A stretch of DNA of 48,993 bases, taken from assembly GCA_944386605.1 (NCBI GenBank), contig CALXBS010000009.1, positions 1 through 48,993 on the forward strand, given 5' to 3'. Under the pieces are notes generated by a model. It made no database searches and was not told the DNA's origin. It saw only the letters and a program-made list of their open reading frames with translations. The DNA is from an uncultured Clostridia bacterium. GTDB lineage: Bacteria > Bacillota > Clostridia > TANB77 > CAG-465. Numbering within the stretch: the first letter of the stretch is position 1; each line of letters opens with the position of its first letter. The translations under genes were made by a program, and so were the position numbers. Shown here one piece after another: positions 5,170 to 47,007 of this stretch.

Positions 5170-7323
5170 TCATTCAGGCTTGATAAAAGTTAAATTTACT
5201 TTTTGACGTTCTTTGTCAATTTTTTCAACATAACAAGTAACAATATCTCCTACATTTACCATTTCTAAAGGATGTGCTATATATTCTTTCGTCATTTTTG
5301 AAATATGAACCAATCCATCATCATGTAAACCAATATCAATAAATGCTCCAAAGTCAACCACATTTCTTACTGTACCTTCTAATTCCATTCCTACTGTTAA
5401 ATCATCTATTGTTAAAATATTACTTTTTAACATTGCACTTGGAAATTCATCTCTAAAATCTCTATTTGGTTGTTTTAAACACTTAATAATATCTTCTAAT
5501 GTAAAATGATCTACATGTTTTTCATCACAAAATTTTTGTTTATCAAACATTTCTATTTCCTTTAAAAAACGATCCGACCCAATTTCTTCTATTGAAATTT
5601 TTAACTCTTCCAATAATTCTGTTACAACTAAATAACTTTCAGGATGAATAGGCGTTTTATCTAAAATATTTGTTCCATCAATGATACGCATAAAACCAAT
5701 GGATTGCTCATATGCCTTAAGAGATAAAACTTTATTTTGTAATAAATCCTGTCTTGATAAGATTTTTCCTTTTTCTTCCCTATACTTTATAATCTTATCA
5801 ATATTTGTTTTTGTAAGTCCAGAAACATATTTTAAAATAGAAGGACTAGCACTATTGATATTAACTCCTACTGAGTTAACAGCTTTACTAACGACAAAAT
5901 CCAATGACTCAGTTAACCTTTTTTGATTTACATCATGTTGATATTGACCTACTCCTATACTTTTAGGATCAATTTTAACAAGCTCACTTAGTGGATCTTG
6001 TAATCTTCTAGCAATACTAATTGCGCTTCTTTCTTCTACTTGTAAACCAGGAAATTCTGTAATTGCTAGTTTAGAAGCAGAATACACAGAAGCACCCGCT
6101 TCACTTACAATAACATATTGTACTTTTTTCTCTTGATATTCTTGACATACTTGTGCTACCAATTTTTCACTTTCACGAGAAGCAGTTCCATTTCCAATTG
6201 CAATAATATCAATATCATATTTCTTGATCAAATCTTTTATAACAGTTTTGGCTTCTTCCCATCTATTTTGTGGTTCATGAGGATAAATCTTACTAATCTT
6301 TAAAACACGTGATGTTGGATCTATTACCGCAAGTTTACATCCTGTTCTAAAAGCAGGATCAAATCCCAGTACAACTTTTTCTTTCATTGGAGGAGTTAAT
6401 AACAATTTTTCTAAATTTTTTCCAAAAACATGAATTGCACCTTCCTCTGCTTGTTCTTTTAATTCACTACGTATTTCACGCTCTATGGATGGAAAAATTA
6501 ATCTTTTATAACTATCTTCTATTGCTTCTTCAATTAGTGGTACTACTGCACTTCCTGGATTTTTAATGATTTTTTTATGTAAAAAATTCATAATATGCTC
6601 TGAATCTATTTGAATATTTACTGAAAGTACATTTTCTTTTTCTCCACGATTTAAAGCAAGTACACGATGTGGTTTTATATACTTAATTTTCTCCGAATAT
6701 TCATAATACATTTTATAAATAAGCTGAACATCTTCTGCATTCTTTTTCTTTTTAGAAACTATAAAACCAAAATTTTTGATATTATTTCTAATATATTTTC
6801 TATAAGTTGCATGATCACTAATCCATTCAGCAATAATATATTTAGCACCTTGTATTGCTTCTTCTACCGTTGTTACTTTATCCGTTAAATATAACGTACT
6901 TGTTTTTTCTATATCGATTTGTTTCGGAAATGACATTAAAATTTTAGCTAATGGTTCAAGCCCATTAGCAATCGCTTCTGTAGCTTTTGTTTTCTTTTTC
7001 TCTTTATATGGCCTATACAAATCTTCTACTTCAACAAGTTTTACACATTTTAGGATTTCTTGTTTTAATGCTTCTGTTAATAATCCTTTTTCTTCTATTA
7101 AACGAATCACATCTTCTTTTCTTTTCCATAAATTTACTTGATACTCATAAACTTCTGAAATTTTTCTAATTTGTTCCTCATTTAATGCATTTGTCATTTC
7201 TTTTCTATACCTTGCAATAAAAGGAACTGTGTTTCCTTCTTCTAATAATTTCAAAACACTTTCAACTTGTTTGATTTGAATATTTAATTCCATTGCAATT
7301 TCTTTTATTATCTCTTGATTCAT
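5170..7323 (-). CDS. tex: Tex-family S1 RNA-binding protein
   Basis: A 717-residue Tex/YdcI-type RNA-associated protein, thought to act in transcription and RNA handling. Domain order: N-terminal helical Tex domain (VPFIARYRKEMTNALNEEQ, a family hallmark), a YqgF-like RNase fold in the middle (VVLGFDPAFRTGCKLAVID), helix-hairpin-helix repeats (YVSGLTKTNIDKIIKYREE), and a C-terminal S1 domain (GMELEGTVRNVVDFGAFID). Length is as usual. AAAAGGAG precedes the ATG. It has its own extended -10 promoter and stands alone between ftsZ and spoIIGA. Confidence 0.95.
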   Translation of the reverse strand: MNQEIIKEIAMELNIQIKQVESVLKLLEEGNTVPFIARYRKEMTNALNEEQIRKISEVYEYQVNLWKRKEDVIRLIEEKGLLTEALKQEILKCVKLVEVEDLYRPYKEKKKTKATEAIANGLEPLAKILMSFPKQIDIEKTSTLYLTDKVTTVEEAIQGAKYIIAEWISDHATYRKYIRNNIKNFGFIVSKKKKNAEDVQLIYKMYYEYSEKIKYIKPHRVLALNRGEKENVLSVNIQIDSEHIMNFLHKKIIKNPGSAVVPLIEEAIEDSYKRLIFPSIEREIRSELKEQAEEGAIHVFGKNLEKLLLTPPMKEKVVLGFDPAFRTGCKLAVIDPTSRVLKISKIYPHEPQNRWEEAKTVIKDLIKKYDIDIIAIGNGTASRESEKLVAQVCQEYQEKKVQYVIVSEAGASVYSASKLAITEFPGLQVEERSAISIARRLQDPLSELVKIDPKSIGVGQYQHDVNQKRLTESLDFVVSKAVNSVGVNINSASPSILKYVSGLTKTNIDKIIKYREEKGKILSRQDLLQNKVLSLKAYEQSIGFMRIIDGTNILDKTPIHPESYLVVTELLEELKISIEEIGSDRFLKEIEMFDKQKFCDEKHVDHFTLEDIIKCLKQPNRDFRDEFPSAMLKSNILTIDDLTVGMELEGTVRNVVDFGAFIDIGLHDDGLVHISKMTKEYIAHPLEMVNVGDIVTCYVEKIDKERQKVNLTFIKPE

Positions 7324-7348
7324 AAAAACTCCTTTTAAATTTAATATT

Positions 7349-7357
7349 ATTATAACA
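7349..7357 (-). promoter_or_regulatory. Extended -10 promoter of tex
   Basis: TGTTATAAT on the minus strand, 26 bases before the tex ATG, forms an extended -10 element. No good -35 is visible. Confidence 0.45.
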
Positions 7358-7365
7358 CATACTAC

Positions 7366-7409
7366 TAAGAAAAAAATAAATCCAAATTTGTCTCTAACAA
7401 TTTGGACTT
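7366..7409 (-). terminator. Terminator after ftsZ
   Basis: On the minus strand AAGTCCAAATT pairs with AATTTGGATTT and is followed by TATTTTTTT. It closes the ftsA-ftsZ unit. Confidence 0.75.
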
Positions 7410-7442
7410 ATTTAAATTTATAGTAAACTCATCTTAATGGTA

Positions 7443-8600
7443 TTATTCTCCTTTATTTCTTCTTAAAAAAGGTGGAATGTCTAAATCAATCATTTTATAA
7501 TCATTTTGATTATTAGATGTTACAGTAGTTCTTGAAGATGGAGTAGAAATACCTAAATCTGCTAATGTTGAACTAGCATCCATTGAAGCATTATTTGTAG
7601 CATTTTTTAATGCTTCTCCAACAATATTATCTAATTTCAAGTCTTGGAATGGAGTTTTTGAAAAACCAGTTGCTATTACAGTGATAATAATCTCATCTTG
7701 AATATTTTCATCAATAACTGCACCAAAGATAATGTTTGCTTCAGGATCAACAGATTTTTGAACTAGCTCTGCAGCTTCATTAATCTCTAATAATCCTAAA
7801 TCTTTACCTCCTGTTACATTGATCAATACACCACCAGCACCTTCAATAGAAGTTTCTAATAATGGGCTATGGATTGCTTGGCGTGCAGCTTCTTGTGATC
7901 TATGTTCTCCAGAAGCTCTACCAATTCCAATATGTGCAATTCCTGCATCTAACATAATTGCTTTTACATCAGCAAAATCAAGATTTACTAAACCAGGAAT
8001 TGTAATTAAATCAGATATACCTTGTACACCTTGTTTTAAAACATCATCTGATTTTTCAAAAGCTTGTGTAATAGAAGTTTGTTTTTCAACTACTTGTAAT
8101 AATTTTTCATTTGGTATGATAATTAATGTATCTACATTTTGTTTTAATTCTTCTATACCATTTTCAGCTTGCATCATTCTTCTTTTTCCTTCAAAAGGAA
8201 ATGGCTTTGTAACAACTGCTACTGTTAATACTCCCATTTCTTTTGAAACTTCTGCAACAATTGGAGCAGCACCTGTTCCTGTTCCGCCTCCCATTCCAGC
8301 GGTAACAAATACCATATCCGCACCTTTTAATGCTTCAGCAATATCTGCTTTTGATTCTTCTGCACTACATTTTCCGATTTCTGGATTAGCTCCTGCACCT
8401 AATCCTCTTGTAAGCTTTTCGCCTATTTGAATTTTTTTAGTAGCCTTTGACATATTTAATGCTTGTCTATCTGTATTAACAGCAATAAATTCTACACTTT
8501 TAACACCAGCTTCAATCATTCTGTTAACGCCGTTATTTCCTGCACCTCCGACACCTACTACCTTAATTGTAGCCATTCCTGCTTGCATTTCATTTTCCAT
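7443..8600 (-). CDS. ftsZ: Cell division GTPase FtsZ
   Basis: FtsZ polymerises into the cytokinetic ring at mid-cell and, in spore-formers, also at the polar septum. The 385 residues show GVGGAGNN near the start, the tubulin signature [10 protein letters not shown], and the T7-loop region [11 protein letters not shown]. The C-terminal peptide [14 protein letters not shown] is the docking tail for FtsA and other partners. GAGGAGG lies about eight bases before the ATG. It follows ftsA by 13 bases, so the pair is cotranscribed, and a terminator follows. Confidence 0.98.
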
Positions 8601-8613
8601 TCTTTACTCCTCC

Positions 8614-9900
8614 TCAAAAAACTTTATTTTCATTATCAAACTTTTCTAACTCTTTTTTACCAAATAGTTTATTCTTAAATCCTACTAATTTCTCAACTAT
8701 TTTTTCTTTCAAATTAGGTTCTGTAATAATCTCCACATCACTATTAACATGTTTACTTAAGCCTAAACTCGCAATATATCGAACCATTCCAAAAACTGTT
8801 GTATGTTGCGGTTTTATAATATTAATAAGTTTTGGACTACAAACTCTTACTTGATTAATTTTTAATGTAAGCATAGCAAGCTCCTCGGCTCCAACAATAT
8901 TACTAATTCCCTGTCCAGTTAATACCATACTTTCTATTTTATTATTCAAATTATTTTCCTGTAACATTTTTTTAATTATCTGATATATTTCTTTTACTCT
9001 TGCTTCTATTACTTGTACAATGTCACTACACTTAATAACATTATTTTGCTGATCAACAGTTTTGCTTGAAAGTTTTATTTCATGATTATTGGTTATCATC
9101 GCCATAATTGCAAGATTGTATTGTCTTTTTAGTTTTTCAGCTTCATCAGTACTTATATTAAAAGTAAGAGCGATATCATTAGTAATATGATCTCCTCCTA
9201 CTGGAATTGTTGTGTAAAATTCTATTCTGGAATTCTTATATACAGATATATCAGTATGTCCACCGCCTATATCTACTAATAATACACCAGATTCTTTTTC
9301 TTCTGGCATTAAAACTATATTCGATGTACCTAGTGTTTCTAATATCAAACCATCTATTTTTATACCTGCGTATTTTAAAGTTTTCTGTACTCCTTCAATA
9401 TAATCACCCTTAGCAATTATTACCTCAACCTCCATAGAAAAAGTTTTACAAAAAGCTCCAATTGGCTCTTCTTTATATGCTCTCCCATTTACAATATATT
9501 GATATGGTAAGATGTCTATAATTTGCTCATTACTATCTAACTTCGTAGTAATCTGTATTTTAGTAAACAAATTATATATATCATTAATTGTCATTCCATC
9601 ATCTGGATGAGCAACCTCTGATTCCATAACAACTTTTTCTATTCTAACATTCATACCTTTTATATTAACATAGGCAGAATTTACTGATAGCTCTGAAATT
9701 TGCTCTGCAGAATTAATTGCTTCTTTCACAGATTGCGATACCGTTTGGGGATCTATAATTTGGCCTTTTCTAACTCCTGAACTATTAGATAAACCATACC
9801 CAATTACTTCAATCTCGCTAAATTTGTTGACTTGGCCAATCACACAACTGACTTTAGATACTCCAATATCTAACCCAACTATGATATCACCTATAGCCAC
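8614..9900 (-). CDS. ftsA: Cell division protein FtsA
   Basis: FtsA is an actin-like ATPase that tethers FtsZ to the membrane. The 428 residues contain IVGLDIGVSKVSCVIGQ (phosphate 1), the SHS2/1C domain region, VLLVDIGGGHTDISVY (phosphate 2) and MVLTGQGISNIVG (adenosine motif). An amphipathic C-terminal helix near IVEKLVGFKNKLFGKKELEK would be the membrane anchor. The start is a GTG at 9900; GGAGGTG lies six bases upstream, and the overlapping ATG one base earlier runs into a stop after three codons. It is translated just ahead of ftsZ. Confidence 0.94.
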   Translation of the reverse strand: MAIGDIIVGLDIGVSKVSCVIGQVNKFSEIEVIGYGLSNSSGVRKGQIIDPQTVSQSVKEAINSAEQISELSVNSAYVNIKGMNVRIEKVVMESEVAHPDDGMTINDIYNLFTKIQITTKLDSNEQIIDILPYQYIVNGRAYKEEPIGAFCKTFSMEVEVIIAKGDYIEGVQKTLKYAGIKIDGLILETLGTSNIVLMPEEKESGVLLVDIGGGHTDISVYKNSRIEFYTTIPVGGDHITNDIALTFNISTDEAEKLKRQYNLAIMAMITNNHEIKLSSKTVDQQNNVIKCSDIVQVIEARVKEIYQIIKKMLQENNLNNKIESMVLTGQGISNIVGAEELAMLTLKINQVRVCSPKLINIIKPQHTTVFGMVRYIASLGLSKHVNSDVEIITEPNLKEKIVEKLVGFKNKLFGKKELEKFDNENKVF

Positions 9901-10031
9901 ATCTCACACCTCCAAATTTGAGCTATTTATATGATACTATCTTTTCAGCAAAAAATCAAGTATTTTATTTAAAAATTGTAATAATTTTGTCATTTAACTG
10001 AAACAATTATTTAACATCCTTTTTTCTTAAA

Positions 10032-10646
10032 TTATACCATTTTTAGACACTGATTTTTAACATATTTTAAGAAAAAAAGATAAATAGCAAAAAATAATAT
10101 TACAAAGTTAAAAAACTTTACAAACATTATGATTCCCATAAGGAAAAGAAAAATTAAAAAAAAGGATTCAATTTTTAAAGTCCATATTCTATATTTTTTT
10201 ACTTTCAAAAGCAATAAGACATTTTCTACAATATGAAATCCATCTAATGGATCAATTGGAAATAAGTTAATTACGGCTAGTGCTAAGTTGATGTCAAAAA
10301 CCAAAGGTATCTCTTTAAAAAGTAGTGCAAGAAAAATATTAGAAAGAGGACCCGCACTATAAATACACAAATTTTGAAATGAATGATTATCTTTTTCTTT
10401 CAGTGTATATTTTTCTTTAACAAAACTTATATTGACTCCTGAAATAGTAAACTTAAAGCATTCTACTCTCTTTCCAAATAGTGATGCCATTAACATATGT
10501 GAAAATTCATGAAATACTATAAACATATAACAGGTAAAATAGGATGAAAGATAACATCTTACTTCAAAAGAAAATAGACATAAAAATAATACTATCAAAA
10601 ATAAAATCTCTATTTCTATTTCAAAGAATTTCGTTTTTATTTTCAA
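10032..10646 (-). CDS. spoIVFB: SpoIVFB-type intramembrane zinc protease
   Basis: A site-2-type M50 metalloprotease; in spore-formers SpoIVFB cuts pro-sigma-K in the outer forespore membrane. Several hydrophobic helices fill the 204 residues. The zinc motif is HEFSH (H46, E47, H50) and the third ligand is D135 in FPIDPLDGF. The start is judged to be the TTG at 10646, six bases after GAGGTGAT; the GTG at 10655 lies inside that binding site. It follows spoIVFA closely, and SpoIVFA is its known partner. I cannot see sigK in this window. Confidence 0.88.
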   Translation of the reverse strand: MKIKTKFFEIEIEILFLIVLFLCLFSFEVRCYLSSYFTCYMFIVFHEFSHMLMASLFGKRVECFKFTISGVNISFVKEKYTLKEKDNHSFQNLCIYSAGPLSNIFLALLFKEIPLVFDINLALAVINLFPIDPLDGFHIVENVLLLLKVKKYRIWTLKIESFFLIFLFLMGIIMFVKFFNFVILFFAIYLFFLKYVKNQCLKMV

Positions 10647-21028: not shown

Positions 21029-22408
21029 CTAATCCACTATTGATAAGGCTTTCTTGATATCTTCAATGAGTTCTCGAGTCATTGTATTTTTATCATATTC
21101 ATCTTTAATTTTTGAATAAGCATGTAAGACAGTTGAATGATCTCTCCCTCCAAAATCTTTCCCAATAGATGGAAACGACATGTTTGCTACTTCCCTACAC
21201 AAATACATAGCGATTTGCCTTGGAAATGCTACACTATTGGATCTTTTGTCACTTACAATATCAGATACTTTTATATTAAAAAATTTACATACAACTTGCA
21301 TAATTAATTTACTTGTTAATACTTTTGTATTTTTTACTAGTATAGATTCAATTGTGTTTTCCACAACTGCGTCTGTTAATTCGTTATTTGTAAAAGATGT
21401 ATAAGCTACTAATTTGTTAAATACACCCTCTAATTCTCTGATATTCGAAGTGACACGTGTTGCTATTTTTACTAATATGTCATCATTAATCACATATCTT
21501 TCCTTCTCTGCTTTTTTTCTTAATATTGCTAAACGTGTTTCATAATCTGGAGTTTGAATATCTACAGATAATCCCATTTCAAATCTTGTTTTTAAACGAT
21601 CTTCTAATAAAGCTATTTCCTTAGGAGGTTTTTCAGATGTTAATACAATTTGTTTTCCACTTTCAAATAACGTGTTGAAAGTGTGGAAAAATTCTTCCTG
21701 ACATTTCTCTTTTCCAGCAATAAACTGAATATCATCAATTAATAATAAATCAATATTTCTATATTTTTTTCTAAAAGATTCGTTCTTATCGGTCATAATA
21801 GCTGAAACTAATTCATTTGCAAATAATTCACCTGTACAATAAATAATTCTGATATTTTGATCTGCTTGATACATAGCATTTCCAATTGCTTGCATTAAGT
21901 GGGTTTTCCCTAGTCCTACTCCACCATAAATAAATAATGGATTATATTTTTTTCCTGGATTTTCTGAAACTGCTACAGAAGCTGCATGTGCAAATCTATT
22001 GTTAGAACCTACTATGAAATTTTCAAAAGTATATTTAGGATTTAATCCTTCTACTTCACCTGAATTTTCTTCTGAAGTATTTACAATAGGCGTTATCCCC
22101 TCTTTTGGCTGCTCCTTTGCTTCTATTTCTTTGATTTCATTTGGCGTTGTATCTGGTATAATTTCCTTTGCTTCAAAAACAATATTATATTTTTTATTTG
22201 TTAAGAATGTTAGTGTATTTTGAATAAGATCTAAATATCTTTTTTTACAAATATCAATATGATAATTAGATGGTGATAAAAAGCATAATGTATTTTCATC
22301 GACTAGTCTTGGTATCATAACATCAACATAAGTTTTGTATCCAACTGGGGAAATCTCTTCTTGCAGTATTTCCAAGGCTTGAGACCATATATCCATAAAA
22401 TTTTCCAA
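21029..22408 (-). CDS. dnaA: Chromosomal replication initiator DnaA (UUG start)
   Basis: DnaA binds its boxes, oligomerises and opens the origin. The 459 residues have domain I (ENFMDIWSQALEIL), a variable linker to about residue 120, the AAA+ domain with GGVGLGKTH and LLIDDIQFIAG, and the box-binding domain IV with DFGGRDHSTVLHAYSKI. The start is judged to be TTG at 22408, eight bases after AGGTGG, because it gives the standard opening MENxxDxW. The GTG at 22420 overlaps the binding site. Two perfect DnaA boxes lie 38-58 bases upstream, consistent with autoregulation. Confidence 0.96.
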   Translation of the reverse strand: MENFMDIWSQALEILQEEISPVGYKTYVDVMIPRLVDENTLCFLSPSNYHIDICKKRYLDLIQNTLTFLTNKKYNIVFEAKEIIPDTTPNEIKEIEAKEQPKEGITPIVNTSEENSGEVEGLNPKYTFENFIVGSNNRFAHAASVAVSENPGKKYNPLFIYGGVGLGKTHLMQAIGNAMYQADQNIRIIYCTGELFANELVSAIMTDKNESFRKKYRNIDLLLIDDIQFIAGKEKCQEEFFHTFNTLFESGKQIVLTSEKPPKEIALLEDRLKTRFEMGLSVDIQTPDYETRLAILRKKAEKERYVINDDILVKIATRVTSNIRELEGVFNKLVAYTSFTNNELTDAVVENTIESILVKNTKVLTSKLIMQVVCKFFNIKVSDIVSDKRSNSVAFPRQIAMYLCREVANMSFPSIGKDFGGRDHSTVLHAYSKIKDEYDKNTMTRELIEDIKKALSIVD

Positions 22409-22445
22409 TGTAAAAACCACCTTTCAAAACACATGTTTTAAAAAG

Positions 22446-39679: not shown

Positions 39680-39841
39680 ATGATATTAGATGATATAAAC
39701 ATTTTAAAACAAAAATTAGAAAAACAAATTGATACAAATGAACCATATGAAGAAATTTATAAAACCAGTGTAGAGATTGATAAATTGCTAGTAGAATATT
39801 ATAGCAGTTTAAATGATGTTAAAAAAGATTTAAACTGCTAA
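39680..39841 (+). CDS. Spo0E-like aspartyl-phosphate phosphatase
   Basis: A 53-residue protein. It reads as two short helices, INILKQKLEKQID and IYKTSVEIDKLLVEYYSSL. The motif S30-VEI-D34-KLLVEYY matches the SxxLDxLIxxYY signature of Spo0E-like phosphatases, which remove phosphate from Spo0A and block sporulation. The ATG at 39680 is 12 bases after AGAAGGA, slightly far. If the 0A-like box upstream is real, this would be a negative feedback gene. Its end overlaps the converging gene by 23 bases and contains a perfect hairpin. Confidence 0.65.
   Translation: MILDDINILKQKLEKQIDTNEPYEEIYKTSVEIDKLLVEYYSSLNDVKKDLNC
39803..39839. repeat. Perfect 12-base inverted repeat at a convergent overlap
   Basis: AGCAGTTTAAAT (39803-39814) and ATTTAAACTGCT (39828-39839) pair perfectly around a 13-base loop. 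It covers the last codons of the Spo0E-like gene and the end of the opposite gene. No T-run follows on either side, so it is not a standard terminator. Confidence 0.7.
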
Positions 39842-40208
39842 AGTCAATATTTAATAGAATAAGACCTAATATAATGATTAGGATGTAATCTGTATCTGTT
39901 TGAAAAAAGAGCAGAATAATTAGTGTAATTAGAATAATATCATCAATTGCTATATTAAATCCAAAAACTCTTAGATTATTATTCTCAATTTCTACAGGTC
40001 CAAATCGAAAAGATTTCTCATGTCTAGTATCATTTGATGAATTATTAGAAGGTATAGTTTCTTCTAATAATTCATCTTTTTTTTCATTTGTATTTGTCTC
40101 TATATTTTGATTGATGGAAGGAGTAGGTCGATTTCCATTTTGATAGTTTGGATAGTAATTTTGAAAATAATTTCGTTGATAATTATAATACATATTATTT
40201 TTATACAT
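39819..40208 (-). CDS. Small Asn/Tyr-rich protein with C-terminal membrane segments
   Basis: A 129-residue protein that I do not recognise by name. The N-terminus is rich in Tyr and Asn (MYKNNMYYNYQRNYFQNYY), like some spore-coat proteins. After an acidic Asn-rich linker the last 50 residues are hydrophobic, with IDDIILITLIILLFFQ and DYILIIILGLILL as a likely membrane hairpin. The ATG at 40208 follows AAAGGTAG by about ten bases. It is the last gene of a leftward trio. A sporulation role is an inference from composition and surroundings. Confidence 0.65.
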   Translation of the reverse strand: MYKNNMYYNYQRNYFQNYYPNYQNGNRPTPSINQNIETNTNEKKDELLEETIPSNNSSNDTRHEKSFRFGPVEIENNNLRVFGFNIAIDDIILITLIILLFFQTDTDYILIIILGLILLNIDFSSLNLF

Positions 40209-40216
40209 TCCTATCA

Positions 40217-40648
40217 CTACCTTTTTTTAGTAAATGCTTCAAATGCTCTTGCAATTGTAAGCATTGATATGTATTCATTTAATTTATTTTGTCTAGATTC
40301 ACGTAGAAATGGCTTTAGTGAAAGTAATAAATTTTTTTTAGGATCTTCTTTTGAAAGTGAAGACATAATTTGTTGTGCTTTGATAAGAATAGTGGGATCT
40401 ATTCCTAAAGATGAGTCATTGGATGATTCGTTTTGTGTATTAGAATTAAACATACTTAGTATAGAAGATAAATCAAAATTATTAGTGGTATTGGTAGAAT
40501 CAGTATTGTTACTTTCTGTAACTGTTTTTTCTTCTTGATTAGACTCATCTGTCTGCATTTTAGCTTGAATACTTTGGATTAAATCAGATAAAGCTTTTGA
40601 GTTATCATCAGAGTTATTTTCTGTGATATGTTCATTAGATGCCATCAT
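40217..40648 (-). CDS. Acidic low-complexity protein, trio middle gene
   Basis: A 143-residue protein without recognised function. The first 75 residues are rich in Asn, Ser, Thr and Asp. The C-terminal part is ordered and contains KKNLLLSLKPFLRESRQNK followed by a helix. Proteins with this LLxxLKPFLxxxRxxK block are familiar to me from spore-formers, but I cannot name the family. Its ATG overlaps the stop of the upstream gene by one base, so the two are coupled. Confidence 0.65.
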   Translation of the reverse strand: MMASNEHITENNSDDNSKALSDLIQSIQAKMQTDESNQEEKTVTESNNTDSTNTTNNFDLSSILSMFNSNTQNESSNDSSLGIDPTILIKAQQIMSSLSKEDPKKNLLLSLKPFLRESRQNKLNEYISMLTIARAFEAFTKKR

Positions 40649-40821
40649 TATTTATTGCCATTTGTTTTACCAAGCATTCTTACTAAATTATTTAAGTCTT
40701 CACTTGACATGTTTTGAACCATTTTTGTTACTTGTTCAATTTTGGTTTTATCAATGGTAGAAAGAAGTTCTACTAGTTTCGAATTAAGCATATTATCCAT
40801 TCCTTGGTTATTATTGTTCAT
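40648..40821 (-). CDS. Small helical protein, trio first gene
   Basis: A 57-residue protein starting MNNNNQGMDNML and then helical (KLVELLSTIDKTKIEQVTKM). AAAGGAGATG lies before the ATG at 40821, a good site. It is unrecognised. It heads the leftward trio, diverging from the VirB4/CpaE operon across about 140 bases that hold a Spo0A-like box. Confidence 0.6.
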   Translation of the reverse strand: MNNNNQGMDNMLNSKLVELLSTIDKTKIEQVTKMVQNMSSEDLNNLVRMLGKTNGNK

Positions 40822-40895: not shown

Positions 40896-40959
40896 TGTCG
40901 AAACTTGCGATGAAAAGTTAGACAATTTCTATTGACAGAGACTAAAAAAAATGTTATAT
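40896..40959 (+). promoter_or_regulatory. Spo0A-box-like element and promoter of the VirB4/CpaE operon
   Basis: TGTCGAAACTTGCGA (40896-40910), 21 bases, TTGACA (40932-40937), 16 bases, TTATAT (40954-40959). It differs from the element at 39588 by one base in 15 and has the same distance to its -35. It sits between diverging units, so it might act on both. Confidence 0.65.
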
Positions 40960-41008
40960 GTTTATACAAGGAAAATCATTTGATTCTTATATGCAAGTAA
41001 GGAGGAAA

Positions 41009-41545
41009 ATGTTAAGATATAAGAATTTAAAGGAATTGTATAATATTGAAAGTATCAATAATGAGTATATATTAATGAAAAAGAACAACAAGTATTATAA
41101 AAAATATATATATGAAATAACCCCTGTTGTTATTTTAGATTTTTCCGTAGAAACACAAAATACCATTATGGCTTTATATGATGAATTTTTAAGAGAATTA
41201 GATATTTCTATACAGATTTATATGACAAATAGAAAAATGAATCTAGAAGAATATATTCATTCTTTGGAAAGTATTCATAAGGATAAGCAAGAAAAAAGAT
41301 TTAAGGAATTATTAGAAGAGTATTTATCGGATTTAAAAGAAAAAATTAGAATGGAAAAGATTTACATTACAAAGTATTATATTATTGTTAGTTTAGAATT
41401 AAAAAAAGTAGATGATATCAAAATAATTGACAATATTATATATAAATTAAATAAACTAGGATGTGTTGTAAATCGTTTAAATGATAAACAACAATTGGAA
41501 AAAATCCTATATGAAAGTATCAACAAGGAAGAATTATATGGATGA
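41009..41545 (+). CDS. VirB4/TraC N-terminal-domain-like protein
   Basis: A 178-residue soluble protein. The central stretch EITPVVILDFSVETQNTIM and LDISIQIYMTNRKMNLEEYI follows the pattern I know from the N-terminal part of Firmicute conjugation ATPases (a PxxFxLxxxxxQxxIL strand-helix, then FDIQIxI). The ATG at 41009 has AAGGAGG just upstream; a longer in-frame reading to 40958 would begin inside the -10 box. It overlaps the VirB4-like gene by eight bases and probably works with it. Recognition is by pattern only. Confidence 0.6.
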   Translation: MLRYKNLKELYNIESINNEYILMKKNNKYYKKYIYEITPVVILDFSVETQNTIMALYDEFLRELDISIQIYMTNRKMNLEEYIHSLESIHKDKQEKRFKELLEEYLSDLKEKIRMEKIYITKYYIIVSLELKKVDDIKIIDNIIYKLNKLGCVVNRLNDKQQLEKILYESINKEELYG

Positions 41546-43292
41546 GATTTTACCTAGTTATATTAAGAATGTAGATTTTAGATTTATAGAATTAGATCAA
41601 AAATATATAGCAAGTTTAATTATTTCAGGATATCCTAAAAATCTTTGCTTTTTAAATTTTTTTGAAGCTTTACCAAAAGATTTACGATATGATATTTCAA
41701 TATTTATTCAAAAGAGAAACACGATGGAAGTATTAAAAGAGTTAACATATAATATTTCTTCATCTGGTGCAGAAATTAGTACAATTCATGATAATCAAAT
41801 TGATATAGATTTATTAAAACGTTCAAAAGATGAAGCAAAAGAGCTTCGTAGAGAAATTCAGCTAAATAATGAAGAAGTTTTTTCAATTGCTTTTTTTATC
41901 ACCTTTTATTCTAATCAAAAAGAAAGTTTAATCAAAATATTAAAAGATTTTAAAACAAAACTTTTTTCAAGACAGATTTTTTCAGTAGTTAGTAATTTTA
42001 GGCATTTAGATGTCTATCTATTAAATTTACCCATTTTTGATTTTCAAAGTTATTTAATAAAATCCAATAGTTTGTATTTAACAAGAAGTTATCTTAGTAA
42101 TTTATTACCGTTCTATACTAAAAATTTATTTCAAAAAAATGGAATTATTTTAGGCTATACCAAAATAAATAATAGTATGTTTAATATAGATTTTTTTCAT
42201 AAAGATTATTTCAATGCGAATATTTCTATCTTTGGAAGCAGTGGCTCTGGAAAATCCTATTTTGCAAAATTAATGATATTTAGGCAATATATGTTAGGAA
42301 GAGTACAATATATATTTGATCCTGAAGGAGAATATTTACTTTTTATACAAAGAGTAAATGGTGTATGTGTATTATTTCGATCGGATACTCCAAATTTTTT
42401 TAATATTATGCAAATTTATGAGTTTGAGATGAAAGAGTATCGTGAAAAAGTTTTTTATTTTAAAGTAGAAGAAGTGGTGGCATTCCTTTCAAAATTTTTA
42501 GATGACTATGAGGAAAATATAGAAGAAGTACTAAAATCTGCTGTTATAAAAGCGTATGTGAAAAAAGGAATTAATGAAAATTTAAGTAGTATGTATAAAA
42601 TAAAAGATGAAAAGAAAATATATGTAGATAGCGTATTAAAAGAATCTTATGATTTTCCAGTACTTACAGATATATTAAGTAATATAGAAAATGTGAAATT
42701 AAGAAAGAAAATTTCAGACATTATTCAAACCCATTTATATACTTTATCAAATTATACTACTTTTGATGTAAACCATGCTTTAATTCTATTTGAAATTCCT
42801 CATTCCATAAAAAATGCAAGTGTATTTGTACAGTATTTCCTAGATAAAATTTTACTTATTTTAAAATATCAAAAAAGGCAATCTATTATTTATGTAGATG
42901 AAATGTGGCAATATATTACAACAGATCAATTTAATATTGCAAATACATTTTTTATGCTTTTTAAAACAATTCGAAAAAGAAATGCAAGTATTGTTACGAT
43001 TACACAAGACATTACTGACTTTTTAACTTATCAAGATGGACTATATGGAAAAAGTCTTTTAAATAATAGTTCATTTAAATTTTTCTTTAAATTAGAATAT
43101 TTAAATATATCTTTATTAGAAGAATTAGGAATACTTGGGAAAATAGAGTATAAAGATTTGTTAAGTTTAGATAAAGGTGAAACTTTTATGATGTTTAAAA
43201 AGAATTCTGTATTGCTTCATATAAAGGCAAGTAATTTTGAAAAAAAGATAATAGAAGGTGAAAATGATGAAGATATTAGTCGCATTAGATAA
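41538..43292 (+). CDS. VirB4-like P-loop ATPase
   Basis: A 584-residue ATPase resembling the VirB4/TraE motor of type IV secretion and conjugation. An N-terminal domain opens with VDFRFIELDQKYIASLIISG and contains SGYPKN; Walker A is GSSGSGKS near residues 233-240, followed by YIFDPEGEY; Walker B is IIYVDEMWQYI near residue 453, followed by TITQDITDFL. No membrane helix is seen. The ATG at 41538 follows AAGGAAG by six bases. Its neighbours are a VirB4 N-terminal-like protein and a CpaE/MinD-like ATPase, with no relaxase, coupling protein or VirB6/VirB8 nearby. Confidence 0.82.
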   Translation: MDEILPSYIKNVDFRFIELDQKYIASLIISGYPKNLCFLNFFEALPKDLRYDISIFIQKRNTMEVLKELTYNISSSGAEISTIHDNQIDIDLLKRSKDEAKELRREIQLNNEEVFSIAFFITFYSNQKESLIKILKDFKTKLFSRQIFSVVSNFRHLDVYLLNLPIFDFQSYLIKSNSLYLTRSYLSNLLPFYTKNLFQKNGIILGYTKINNSMFNIDFFHKDYFNANISIFGSSGSGKSYFAKLMIFRQYMLGRVQYIFDPEGEYLLFIQRVNGVCVLFRSDTPNFFNIMQIYEFEMKEYREKVFYFKVEEVVAFLSKFLDDYEENIEEVLKSAVIKAYVKKGINENLSSMYKIKDEKKIYVDSVLKESYDFPVLTDILSNIENVKLRKKISDIIQTHLYTLSNYTTFDVNHALILFEIPHSIKNASVFVQYFLDKILLILKYQKRQSIIYVDEMWQYITTDQFNIANTFFMLFKTIRKRNASIVTITQDITDFLTYQDGLYGKSLLNNSSFKFFFKLEYLNISLLEELGILGKIEYKDLLSLDKGETFMMFKKNSVLLHIKASNFEKKIIEGENDEDISRIR

Positions 43293-44433
43293 TCAGGAAA
43301 TTAAACAAAAGATTGATGAGTGTTTTAAAGAAGAGGTGTATCATATTGATTTTGAATCCATGGAAGAAGTTATAGAATTTTTAAGTACACGTTCTGAAGA
43401 ATATATTTTAGTAACAAAGGATAGTTTAAAAGGAAACATTGATAAACGATTATATATTAAACAATTAAAGCTGGCAAATAAGAATGTAAAGATTATATAT
43501 ATTGTTCAAGAGTTAACACAAGAATATAAAGAGTTTTTGTTTGCAAATGAAGTTTTTAATATTTTTGAAGGAAAAAATATTCATATGGATCAACTATTAG
43601 AAAGTATTCAAAACCCTCAGTTTGTTATATATAAAAATAGTCAGATGGAGGAAAAAAGTAATAAAAAAATAATTGGAGTTATAGGTTTATCTGGTGTAGG
43701 AAAATCAGTGATTAGTAGTGCTTTAGCAAAAGATATGTGTGCTAAATTAAGAGGAAAGATTTTATTAGCTGATATGAGTCTTAAAACTCATTCACTAGAT
43801 ATTTATAATAATATTTCTACCAATTTATCATTATATGAGTATTTAAGTCAATGTGAAGAATCAAATTTTAATAAAAAAGAAATAGAAAAGTATATACTAG
43901 AAGATCAAGAAGAAAAGAAGTTAAATTATTTATTAGCAGATGATCATCTTGGGAATTTAAACGAGAAAATGTTGGACAAGCTATATCAATATATGATCGA
44001 TGAATATCAACATATTGTTTTAGATTTAGATACTAATTTAAATCATTTAGTAACTAAATTTTGGTTAGAAAAAGTAACTGATGTAGTTATTGTAATGAAT
44101 CCTAACTATGTGAATATTCGAAATAGTATTGCTTATTTAAGAGATTTGAAAAAGGATTCTATCAAATTATCTATGATTATTAATAAAATTCAAAGAGGGT
44201 CACTAGATTTTTCACAAATTAGATCCTTTTTTAAAGAATATTATATAACTGGTTATATGATGTATAGCAAAAATATAGAAGGATATATTAATGGAAGTAT
44301 ATCCAATATTGTTTTAAATTGTAACTTTGATCGTTTATATAAAAAGATTATGTTAGTGGATGAGAAAATCTCTTTAAAAGAGAGTTATTTGAAAAAATAT
44401 ATGCAAATTAAAAAAAGATTAGAAAATGTTTAG
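43267..44433 (+). CDS. CpaE/MinD-like P-loop ATPase with N-terminal receiver-like domain
   Basis: A 388-residue protein. Residues 1-115 look like a degenerate receiver fold (MKILVALDNQEIKQKIDECF). After it comes a ParA/MinD-type ATPase with the deviant Walker A GLSGVGKSVISS near residues 140-150 and the later HIVLDLDTNLNH and VVIVMNPNYVNIRNS. The layout fits CpaE, which positions secretion or pilus machines at a pole. The ATG at 43267 lies six bases after GAAGGTG; an ATG one codon earlier is possible. It overlaps the VirB4-like gene by 26 bases. Confidence 0.75.
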   Translation: MKILVALDNQEIKQKIDECFKEEVYHIDFESMEEVIEFLSTRSEEYILVTKDSLKGNIDKRLYIKQLKLANKNVKIIYIVQELTQEYKEFLFANEVFNIFEGKNIHMDQLLESIQNPQFVIYKNSQMEEKSNKKIIGVIGLSGVGKSVISSALAKDMCAKLRGKILLADMSLKTHSLDIYNNISTNLSLYEYLSQCEESNFNKKEIEKYILEDQEEKKLNYLLADDHLGNLNEKMLDKLYQYMIDEYQHIVLDLDTNLNHLVTKFWLEKVTDVVIVMNPNYVNIRNSIAYLRDLKKDSIKLSMIINKIQRGSLDFSQIRSFFKEYYITGYMMYSKNIEGYINGSISNIVLNCNFDRLYKKIMLVDEKISLKESYLKKYMQIKKRLENV

Positions 44434-44444
44434 GAGGAATATTT

Positions 44445-45176
44445 ATGCAAAATAGTTTATATGTAGAAAAGACAAATCAAAATATGGAGTTAGACCCAAA
44501 GGTAGATATTAGTTTAGAAAAGAATAAATCAGAGTTTACCAATATGGTAGAAAATGTGTTAGATAAGGGAGCAAATTATATTATCAAAGGAATGCCAATT
44601 AATGATCATATCAAAGATGTATTATTAGATGTAAAAGAAGCCTTTAAGACGAAGGATTTTAAAGAAATTTTAAAAACGGCGGTTGGAAGTAGTATTAGAG
44701 AAGGTTTAGAAATACTTGCATTACCAAAAGAAATATTAAATGATTTGGAAAAGTTTAAAGAAGTAGCTTTAAAAGGTGGGTTAAAAGAAGGAATTTCTGC
44801 AGGAATTGAAATTATTTCAAAGAGATTCTTAGGAAAAAATGTTTATGATGTATATATCAAAGATTTTTTTAATAAAACCAAAGAATTTATTAAAAGTAAT
44901 GATTTTTTAAGTAAACTACAAACAAATGTAGATAGAAGTTTAAGTAAAATAGAAGGATATAAACAAATTTGTAAAGAATGGTATAAGGCATATGATGAAT
45001 TTGATTTAGAAAAGTTAAATACCATAGCAAGTGATTTAAATAATAAAAAAAGTAAAATTCGCTTTGATTTAGAGTGTGTTAATCAAAATAACGTGATTCA
45101 AAATATGACAAAACTTATTAATAATAAAAAAGATAAGTTAACAGAGTTACAAATGCAAATTTGCAATAGTATTTGA
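44445..45176 (+). CDS. Helical protein of the VirB4/CpaE operon, unknown
   Basis: A 243-residue protein, helical throughout, that I do not recognise. Its middle has Gly-spaced amphipathic helices (VALKGGLKEGISAGIEIISK, TAVGSSIREGLEILALPKE) of a kind able to associate with membranes. No signal peptide or classical membrane helix is seen. GGAGG lies before the ATG and the gene starts 11 bases after the CpaE-like stop, so it belongs to the operon. It could be a substrate or a structural partner; nothing in the sequence decides this. Confidence 0.65.
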   Translation: MQNSLYVEKTNQNMELDPKVDISLEKNKSEFTNMVENVLDKGANYIIKGMPINDHIKDVLLDVKEAFKTKDFKEILKTAVGSSIREGLEILALPKEILNDLEKFKEVALKGGLKEGISAGIEIISKRFLGKNVYDVYIKDFFNKTKEFIKSNDFLSKLQTNVDRSLSKIEGYKQICKEWYKAYDEFDLEKLNTIASDLNNKKSKIRFDLECVNQNNVIQNMTKLINNKKDKLTELQMQICNSI

Positions 45177-46283: not shown

Positions 46284-47007
46284 GTGTTAAAAAATTTATA
46301 TATGAAAAGAATTTTCTTTATATTGGTCATAGTTTGTATTTCGTTAGGTGTTTATGGTATAATAGGGATGTTAGATAAAGAACAAACGATTCAAGTAAAT
46401 GCTCTTCCTATGACAAATAAAACGATTATACTCGATGCACGGACATGGGCTCCCGGATGAGGGGGCAGTCGGTTTTAATGGTACAACCGAGCAAGCGATT
46501 AATCTAAGTATTGTATTAAAACTTCAAGAGCTATTAGATCAAAGTGGTGCTAAAACGATTTTAACACGAAGTGATGAAAATGGAATTTATGATTTAGATA
46601 GTGATAGCATTAAGAATAAAAAGGTAAGTGATATCAAAAATAGGGTAGAAATTGGAAATCATTCTAATGCAGATATTTTTATTTCGATTCATCTTAATAA
46701 ATTTTCAGATTCAAAGTATAGAGGATGGCAGACATTTTATCAAGAAGAAAATGAGAAGAGTAAACAGTTAGCAACTCTTATTCAAGACTATATTAATCAA
46801 AATATTGATTATGATAATAATAGAAAAGTTTTACCGATTTATAATGTATATATTACAAAAAATGTAACGATTCCAACAGTAATTGTGGAATGTGGTTTTT
46901 TATCTAATCCTGAAGAAAGTGAATTGTTAAAAACAAATGAATATCAAAATAAATTGGTTTGGGGAATCTTTATTGCAATTCAACAATATTTTTACGAAGG
47001 AAGTTAA
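46284..47007 (+). pseudogene. cwlD: cwlD spore cortex amidase, frameshifted in the catalytic motif
   Basis: CwlD removes stem peptides to form muramic-delta-lactam in spore cortex. A GTG at 46284 after AAAGGTGA begins an N-terminal membrane anchor (KRIFFILVIVCISLGVYG). The first frame reads TIILDARTWAPG and stops at 46458-46460. Skipping one base at about 46440 gives DAGHGLPDEGAVGFNGTTEQ, the normal Amidase_3 zinc motif, and the second frame then runs to 47007 with FISIHLNKF and TVIVECGFLSNPEES intact. So all family motifs exist, split by one extra base. This may be a true inactivation, a sequencing error or recoding. A weak sporulation-type promoter (GAATG at 46238, CATATA at 46259) lies upstream. 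Confidence 0.88.

Follow-up and report, generated by a model that had tools for sequence, protein, structure and literature searches.

A probable domesticated type IV secretion system without a relaxase, bearing a VirB2 pilin and Tad components, in an order of gut Clostridia

Four tightly packed genes at 40,896-45,176 of the window (the whole 48,993-nucleotide stretch of DNA analyzed here) encode a split VirB4, a TadZ/CpaE-like protein and a helical protein without known relatives. Together with a second cluster (cluster B), encoding VirD4, a VirB2-type pilin, VirB6 and PrgI elsewhere in the same genome, this operon (cluster A) probably represents a chromosomally fixed, split and domesticated type IV secretion system (T4SS) that lacks a relaxase and carries a VirB2 pilin and Tad parts. 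Its presence suggests that gut bacteria possess a contact or secretion organ not described so far. The series from element to hybrid locus, split operons and stepwise loss offers material for how conjugation machines are tamed. A literature search for VirB4 combined with Tad proteins in Firmicutes found no description of this system.

The VirB4 operon and its chromosomal setting

The four genes form one plus-strand run, as the initial annotation had described: genes 1 and 2 overlap by 8 bases, genes 2 and 3 overlap by 26 bases and genes 3 and 4 are separated by 11 bases, spacing that indicates a single operon. Gene 1 (41009..41545) encodes the VirB4 N-terminal domain (VirB4N; NF045975 positions 101-278, E = 1.2e-6). 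Its start is probably at 41009, where AAGGAGG is followed by ATG to give 178 aa, rather than at 40958, which gives the longest frame. Gene 2 (41538..43292; P0002) encodes a 584-aa VirB4 ATPase (NF045975 positions 311-893, E = 2.2e-38; PF19044, E = 9e-12), the profile of which matches the solved VirB4 4ag5 at 5e-61. Because the two genes cover NF045975 consecutively, they constitute one split VirB4; the family identities and intact Walker motifs first read from the sequence hold, whereas the count of two VirB4-related proteins does not. VirB4N is a separate gene across the order, and in integrative conjugative elements (ICEs) it also precedes the ATPase, split or fused. In an alignment of 26 orthologues, the Walker A motif GSSGSGKS (42234..42257; columns G233, S235, G236, G238, K239 and S240) and the Walker B Asp-Glu pair (42897..42902; D454 and E455) were invariant.

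Gene 3 (43267..44433) encodes a TadZ/CpaE-like protein with a receiver-like domain and a MinD-type ATPase domain, and its profile matches MinD and 3ea0. Its predicted structure (pLDDT 85.6) has the TadZ/CpaE fold, with 3fkq as the best PDB match by Foldseek (E = 1.1e-9 over 385 columns); the modeled fold includes the receiver-like domain, in agreement with the CpaE/MinD-like assignment made earlier. Gene 4 (44445..45176; P0004) encodes P4, predicted to be a soluble all-helical protein, which is conserved with the operon and was found in 46 of 54 relatives. It had been noted as helical and unrecognized, and indeed no relative was returned by Pfam, NCBIfam or PDB sequence searches. The model of P4 (pLDDT 89.5) matched nothing in the PDB by Foldseek at E ≤ 0.001, and its fold is thus a confident prediction without a known match. 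Assignment to a prenyl synthase bundle was rejected, as VIA-align Z scores of up to 8.4 covered half of the chain and unrelated helical bundles scored likewise. A defense system was likewise set aside, PADLOC having given only generic HerA/mad8 P-loop matches. A promoter scan at the operon performed no better than on shuffled sequences.

The operon is widespread in the order. A one-to-one relative of the VirB4 ATPase was present in 52 of 57 genomes, all of them draft assemblies in many contigs in which gaps can mimic absence; in one of the five apparent absences, a contig end adjoins P4. The order VirB4N-VirB4-TadZ-(CpaF-TadB)-P4 recurs throughout, far beyond chance. In many lineages a CpaF/TadA ATPase gene (PF00437, about 1e-24; CpaF as the best solved relatives, 1e-36) and one of TadB type (PF00482) lie between genes 3 and 4. 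Both are missing in the window species and about half of its genus, and no CpaF orthologue was found anywhere in the window's genome. The pair was lost several times (five changes on the VirB4 tree, bootstrap range 4-6), while VirB4N, VirB4, TadZ and P4 were retained. These joint losses, along with a TadZ P-loop missing in some genomes of family f3, would fit an old integrative conjugative element in decay, left without a function. We regard this as highly improbable given the breadth of VirB4 retention, its invariant catalytic residues and dN/dS values well below 1 (0.02-0.44 for every operon gene pair tested), the latter two indicating that the operon is under constraint.

The operon lies close to the replication origin. 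The dnaA gene (21029..22420, minus strand; TIGR00362, E = 3e-158) stands beside a sign change in GC skew at about 22 kb and is followed by dnaN, recF and gyrB; the skew flip places the operon ~19 kb from oriC. Families f3 and f4 have the operon between gyrB and gyrA, after dnaA-dnaN-recF. Across most of the window species' genus and family, two M16 peptidase genes lie 5' of the operon and ylbF lies downstream. No integrase was found beside cluster A, the flanks being conserved housekeeping genes. The proposal that the machine is domesticated is borne out: the operon is chromosomal and vertically inherited, with an order-wide constant neighborhood and no adjoining relaxase.

The initial annotation further suggested a use in sporulation, on the basis of Spo0E-like, ylbF and cwlD neighbors. 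The ylbF gene (7.8e-20) and cwlD were confirmed, and the Spo0E-like gene (39680-39841) scored slightly under the Pfam cut-off. The four genes do travel together across the order, but their proximity to ylbF and cwlD is specific to the window's family. An export or feeding machine that has VirB4 and TadZ working at the forespore or polar septum would also be consistent with spo0A lying within a few kilobases after the operon in genus g3 (L051 1386-3879; L063 24-1919) and with SpoIVA scoring above cut-off in 50 of 54 genomes. Such spore markers are nearly universal, however, so that co-occurrence says little, and in families f3 and f4 the gyrB-gyrA location is away from sporulation genes. Moreover, presence of the operon was not confined to genomes with sporulation genes, in a comparison of few genomes with possible assembly gaps: G042 has all six operon genes and neither SpoIVA nor SpoIIR, while the draft assemblies of G035 and G053 have SpoIIR and Spo0A and lack the operon VirB4. 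We therefore consider a sporulation machine improbable. A polar assembly role of the TadZ-like protein is plausible by homology.

Two further features were noted near the operon. The reading frame of cwlD is broken in the window by an apparent one-base insertion at 46434-46448 (GATGCA C GGACATGG), at a site where four relatives have an intact DAGHG motif; the break is either an assembly error or a real frameshift. In the window's family alone, the operon is accompanied by three divergent minus-strand genes at 39819-40821. Their products have 57, 143 and 132 aa, and the 132-aa product has a hydrophobic hairpin at its C terminus.

A second cluster encoding VirD4, VirB2, VirB6 and PrgI

The apparent lack of conjugation genes holds for the neighborhood of the operon and not for the genome. 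Using profiles built from genes of family f3, we located cluster B on contig C7 of the window's own genome (6698-10119, minus strand), near gyrA. It encodes VirD4 (8188-10119; PF10412, 2.6e-11; Walker A intact), a VirB2-type pilin (7860-8183; PF04956, 2.3e-8), VirB6 (7045-7860; 7054-7854 by profile A8, 7e-44) and PrgI/VirB3 (6698-7048; own PrgI profile, 1.6e-10), followed by dnaD and dnaC. The VirB6 of the window's genome does not reach 0.01 with PF04610 (TrbL/VirB6), which matches that of a relative at 8e-7. Its PrgI gave no Pfam PrgI match, and the PrgI profile also matches ICE PrgI at 4.5e-12. In family f3, the opposite strand beyond gyrA carries dnaC, dnaD, PrgI, VirB6, a VirB2-like pilin and VirD4, and, a few insertions and the losses of VirD4 aside, the order VirD4-VirB2-VirB6-PrgI-DnaD-DnaC is constant in families f1, f3, f4 and f5. 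With these four proteins in the same genome, and CpaF and TadB in relatives, the idea that two ATPases alone make up the machine was abandoned. Neither conserved cluster of the order yielded a VirB8-like protein or a wall hydrolase clearly linked to it. Next to cluster B, just upstream of VirD4 and beside a Lys-Glu-Thr tRNA cluster, lies a phage-like element that carries a tyrosine integrase (L153; 10684-15246 of C7). The tRNA cluster is present in this genome and in nine of nine scanned relatives. Most relatives lack the phage-like element at this site.

VirB6 was found in 48 of 54 relatives and VirD4 in 33 of 54. The two clusters occur jointly nearly throughout the order. Fourteen species of the genus have neither VirD4 nor CpaF; all 14 retain VirB4 and P4 and 13 retain VirB6, and VirB2 and PrgI were seen in both of the VirD4-less species whose cluster was read. 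These losses bear on whether the channel still functions in conjugation, either mobilizing other elements in trans or transferring chromosomal DNA, which we judge unlikely. The intact Walker A of VirD4, the location of the VirB4 operon near oriC and the relaxases encoded elsewhere in the genomes of some relatives would suit such a function. Against it, VirD4 was lost in species that keep the rest, and a search restricted to the PF03432 class of relaxases found none genome-wide in eight of the 12 genomes tested, the window's genome included.

Clusters A and B are unlinked in the window's family, and we infer that they are two halves of one machine. In family f2, PrgI stands directly upstream of VirB4N-VirB4, as in ICEs, and CpaE-CpaF-TadB-TadC-CpaB occupies a different locus. 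In one f2 genome (G044; L161 3759-10429), genes for a TraG-type VirD4 (PF02534) and for VirB6-like, CpaB-like and CpaE-like proteins were observed close together. Correlation of the VirB4 distance matrix with those of VirB6 and VirB2 was significant beyond DnaC and no higher than that of the control DnaD; this mirror-tree comparison is therefore not specific.

The best evidence that the clusters form one system is a single contiguous locus uniting VirB, VirD4 and Tad genes in G442, a genome from another family of the phylum, outside the order. The first part of this locus encodes ParB, VirD4, VirB2, VirB6, a C39-type peptidase, a PrgI-like protein, a full-length VirB4 and a receiver-like protein; these are followed by RcpC/CpaB, a ParA-like ATPase, CpaF, TadB-like and TadC-like proteins, an A24 prepilin peptidase and an SLH protein. 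The PrgI-like, TadC-like and ParA-like assignments were read from sequence and position only. The TadB-like protein aligns weakly with TadB, and the 422-aa receiver-like protein gave no useful alignment with the TadZ profile. Among 398 sampled genomes of the phylum, the VirD4 type of cluster B was found only in G442, its relative G477 and the window's genome. The VirB4 proteins of the operon form one clade (SH-aLRT 98) that is sister to those of clostridial ICEs; these ICEs carry VirB2-like, VirB6, wall peptidase, PrgI, VirB4N, VirB4 and VirD4 genes, and one has an integrase. A more far-reaching reading, which we advance tentatively as it has rather less than an even chance of being correct, is that the Tad motor and positioning proteins (TadZ, CpaF and TadB) and the T4SS proteins (VirB2, PrgI, VirB4, VirB6 and VirD4) make up one hybrid apparatus for building a VirB2 filament on a cell of Gram-positive type. 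Such an apparatus would have originated as one locus, possibly carried by a mobile element and still to be seen in G442, and would have become a core chromosomal organ of this order of gut Clostridia for cell contact or effector delivery.

Proposed working of the machine

In characterized families, VirB4 supplies the energy for extracting the pilin and assembling the channel, the membrane part consists of VirB6 and PrgI and the filament of VirB2, while VirD4 acts as substrate receptor and TadZ as positioning factor. By analogy, the VirB4 described here would power both the extraction and the assembly of pilin (VirB2) and channel (VirB6/PrgI), and TadZ would position the machine, probably at a pole. 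P4 might serve as a cytoplasmic adaptor or a substrate, which is a guess. Conjugative transfer of its own DNA is most likely not what the machine does today, since no relaxase adjoins the clusters and a subclade devoid of VirD4, CpaF and TadB keeps VirB2, VirB4, VirB6 and PrgI. A VirB2 filament or contact-dependent export or uptake is the most likely function.

DNA uptake competes seriously with export or adhesion as the function, because the core of the same reduced subclade (VirB2, PrgI, VirB4, VirB6, TadZ and P4) resembles that of Helicobacter pylori ComB. ComB lacks VirB1, VirB5, VirD4 and VirB11, and VirB4 is its only proposed ATPase (PMC7366825). Like the present system, ComB is a reduced chromosomal T4SS around VirB4 with no relaxase, and the subclade shares its VirB2/3/4/6 core; unlike the present system, it is a diderm machine with VirB7-VirB10 and has no Tad proteins. 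DNA import through VirB2, VirB3, VirB4 and VirB6, with VirD4, the VirB11-like CpaF and a relaxase being dispensable, nevertheless appears to us a minority prospect, although the strongest of the functional alternatives considered: VirD4 is retained in most of the order, and neither cluster has competence genes linked to it.

Comparison with known systems

The window's genome encodes the T4SS components VirB4, VirB6, VirB3/PrgI and VirD4 (the last absent in one subclade). Of the marks of a self-transmissible element, it has neither a PF03432 relaxase nor an integrase bounding cluster A, and of the Tad/Flp components it has TadZ and lacks TadA/CpaF and TadB/TadC. The Tad/Flp pilus shares with the system the TadZ fold and, in relatives, the CpaF ATPase and a T2SSF membrane protein, as well as CpaB in family f2 and CpaB with a prepilin peptidase in G442. 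It differs in that the window species lacks CpaF and TadB, that TadZ is embedded with VirB4 and that no Flp pilin was seen at the loci examined.

The MPF-FATA systems of clostridial ICEs (L110-L119) have VirB2-like, VirB6, PrgI, VirB4N, VirB4 and VirD4 proteins and the sister VirB4 clade. Each ICE is, however, one block with an integrase, a wall peptidase and accessory genes, whereas the present system is chromosomally fixed in two blocks without those genes.

The closest parallel by description is the T4SS of Patescibacteria (Saccharimonadia), which is chromosomal, relaxase-less, often near dnaA and equipped with VirB2-like pilins (PMC12102498; reviewed in PMC12857230). The two are alike in being near-universal in their lineage, in having PrgI/VirB3, VirB4 and VirB6 and in encoding VirD4 apart from virB4. 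In contrast to Patescibacteria, the hosts here are Clostridia with spore genes, VirB4 is split and belongs to a clade sister to clostridial ICEs, and TadZ (with CpaF and TadB in relatives) lies inside the virB4 operon. Domestication was probably independent in the two lineages, which were likened by description, the tree containing no Patescibacterial sequences. According to a 2025 review, Gram-positive T4SSs are without VirB2 except in Patescibacteria, which need the system to live on host bacteria (PMC12857230). This order of small-genome gut Clostridia would thus be a second lineage with a VirB2-bearing, relaxase-less T4SS, here adjoining replication genes and joined by Tad parts. The hosts are Clostridia predicted to form spores, and no VirB2-bearing system is listed for this group in that review (PMC12857230).

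Nearly every genome of the order also contains a second, different chromosomal T4SS-like locus, located in the window's genome on contig C8 (L033; 5968-14901) between glyA/pgi and the gap-pgk-tpi-eno genes. The possibility that the VirB4 ATPase of the operon serves this locus was ranked low, as the locus encodes a VirB4 and a VirB4N of its own, and the PrgI and VirB6 proteins of cluster B are closer to those of ICEs than to those of the second T4SS in the same genomes. The second locus encodes TrbC-type pilins, PrgI, a VirB4N-like protein of 480 aa, a VirB4 of 692 aa, a VirB6-like protein and a pair of small extracytoplasmic proteins.
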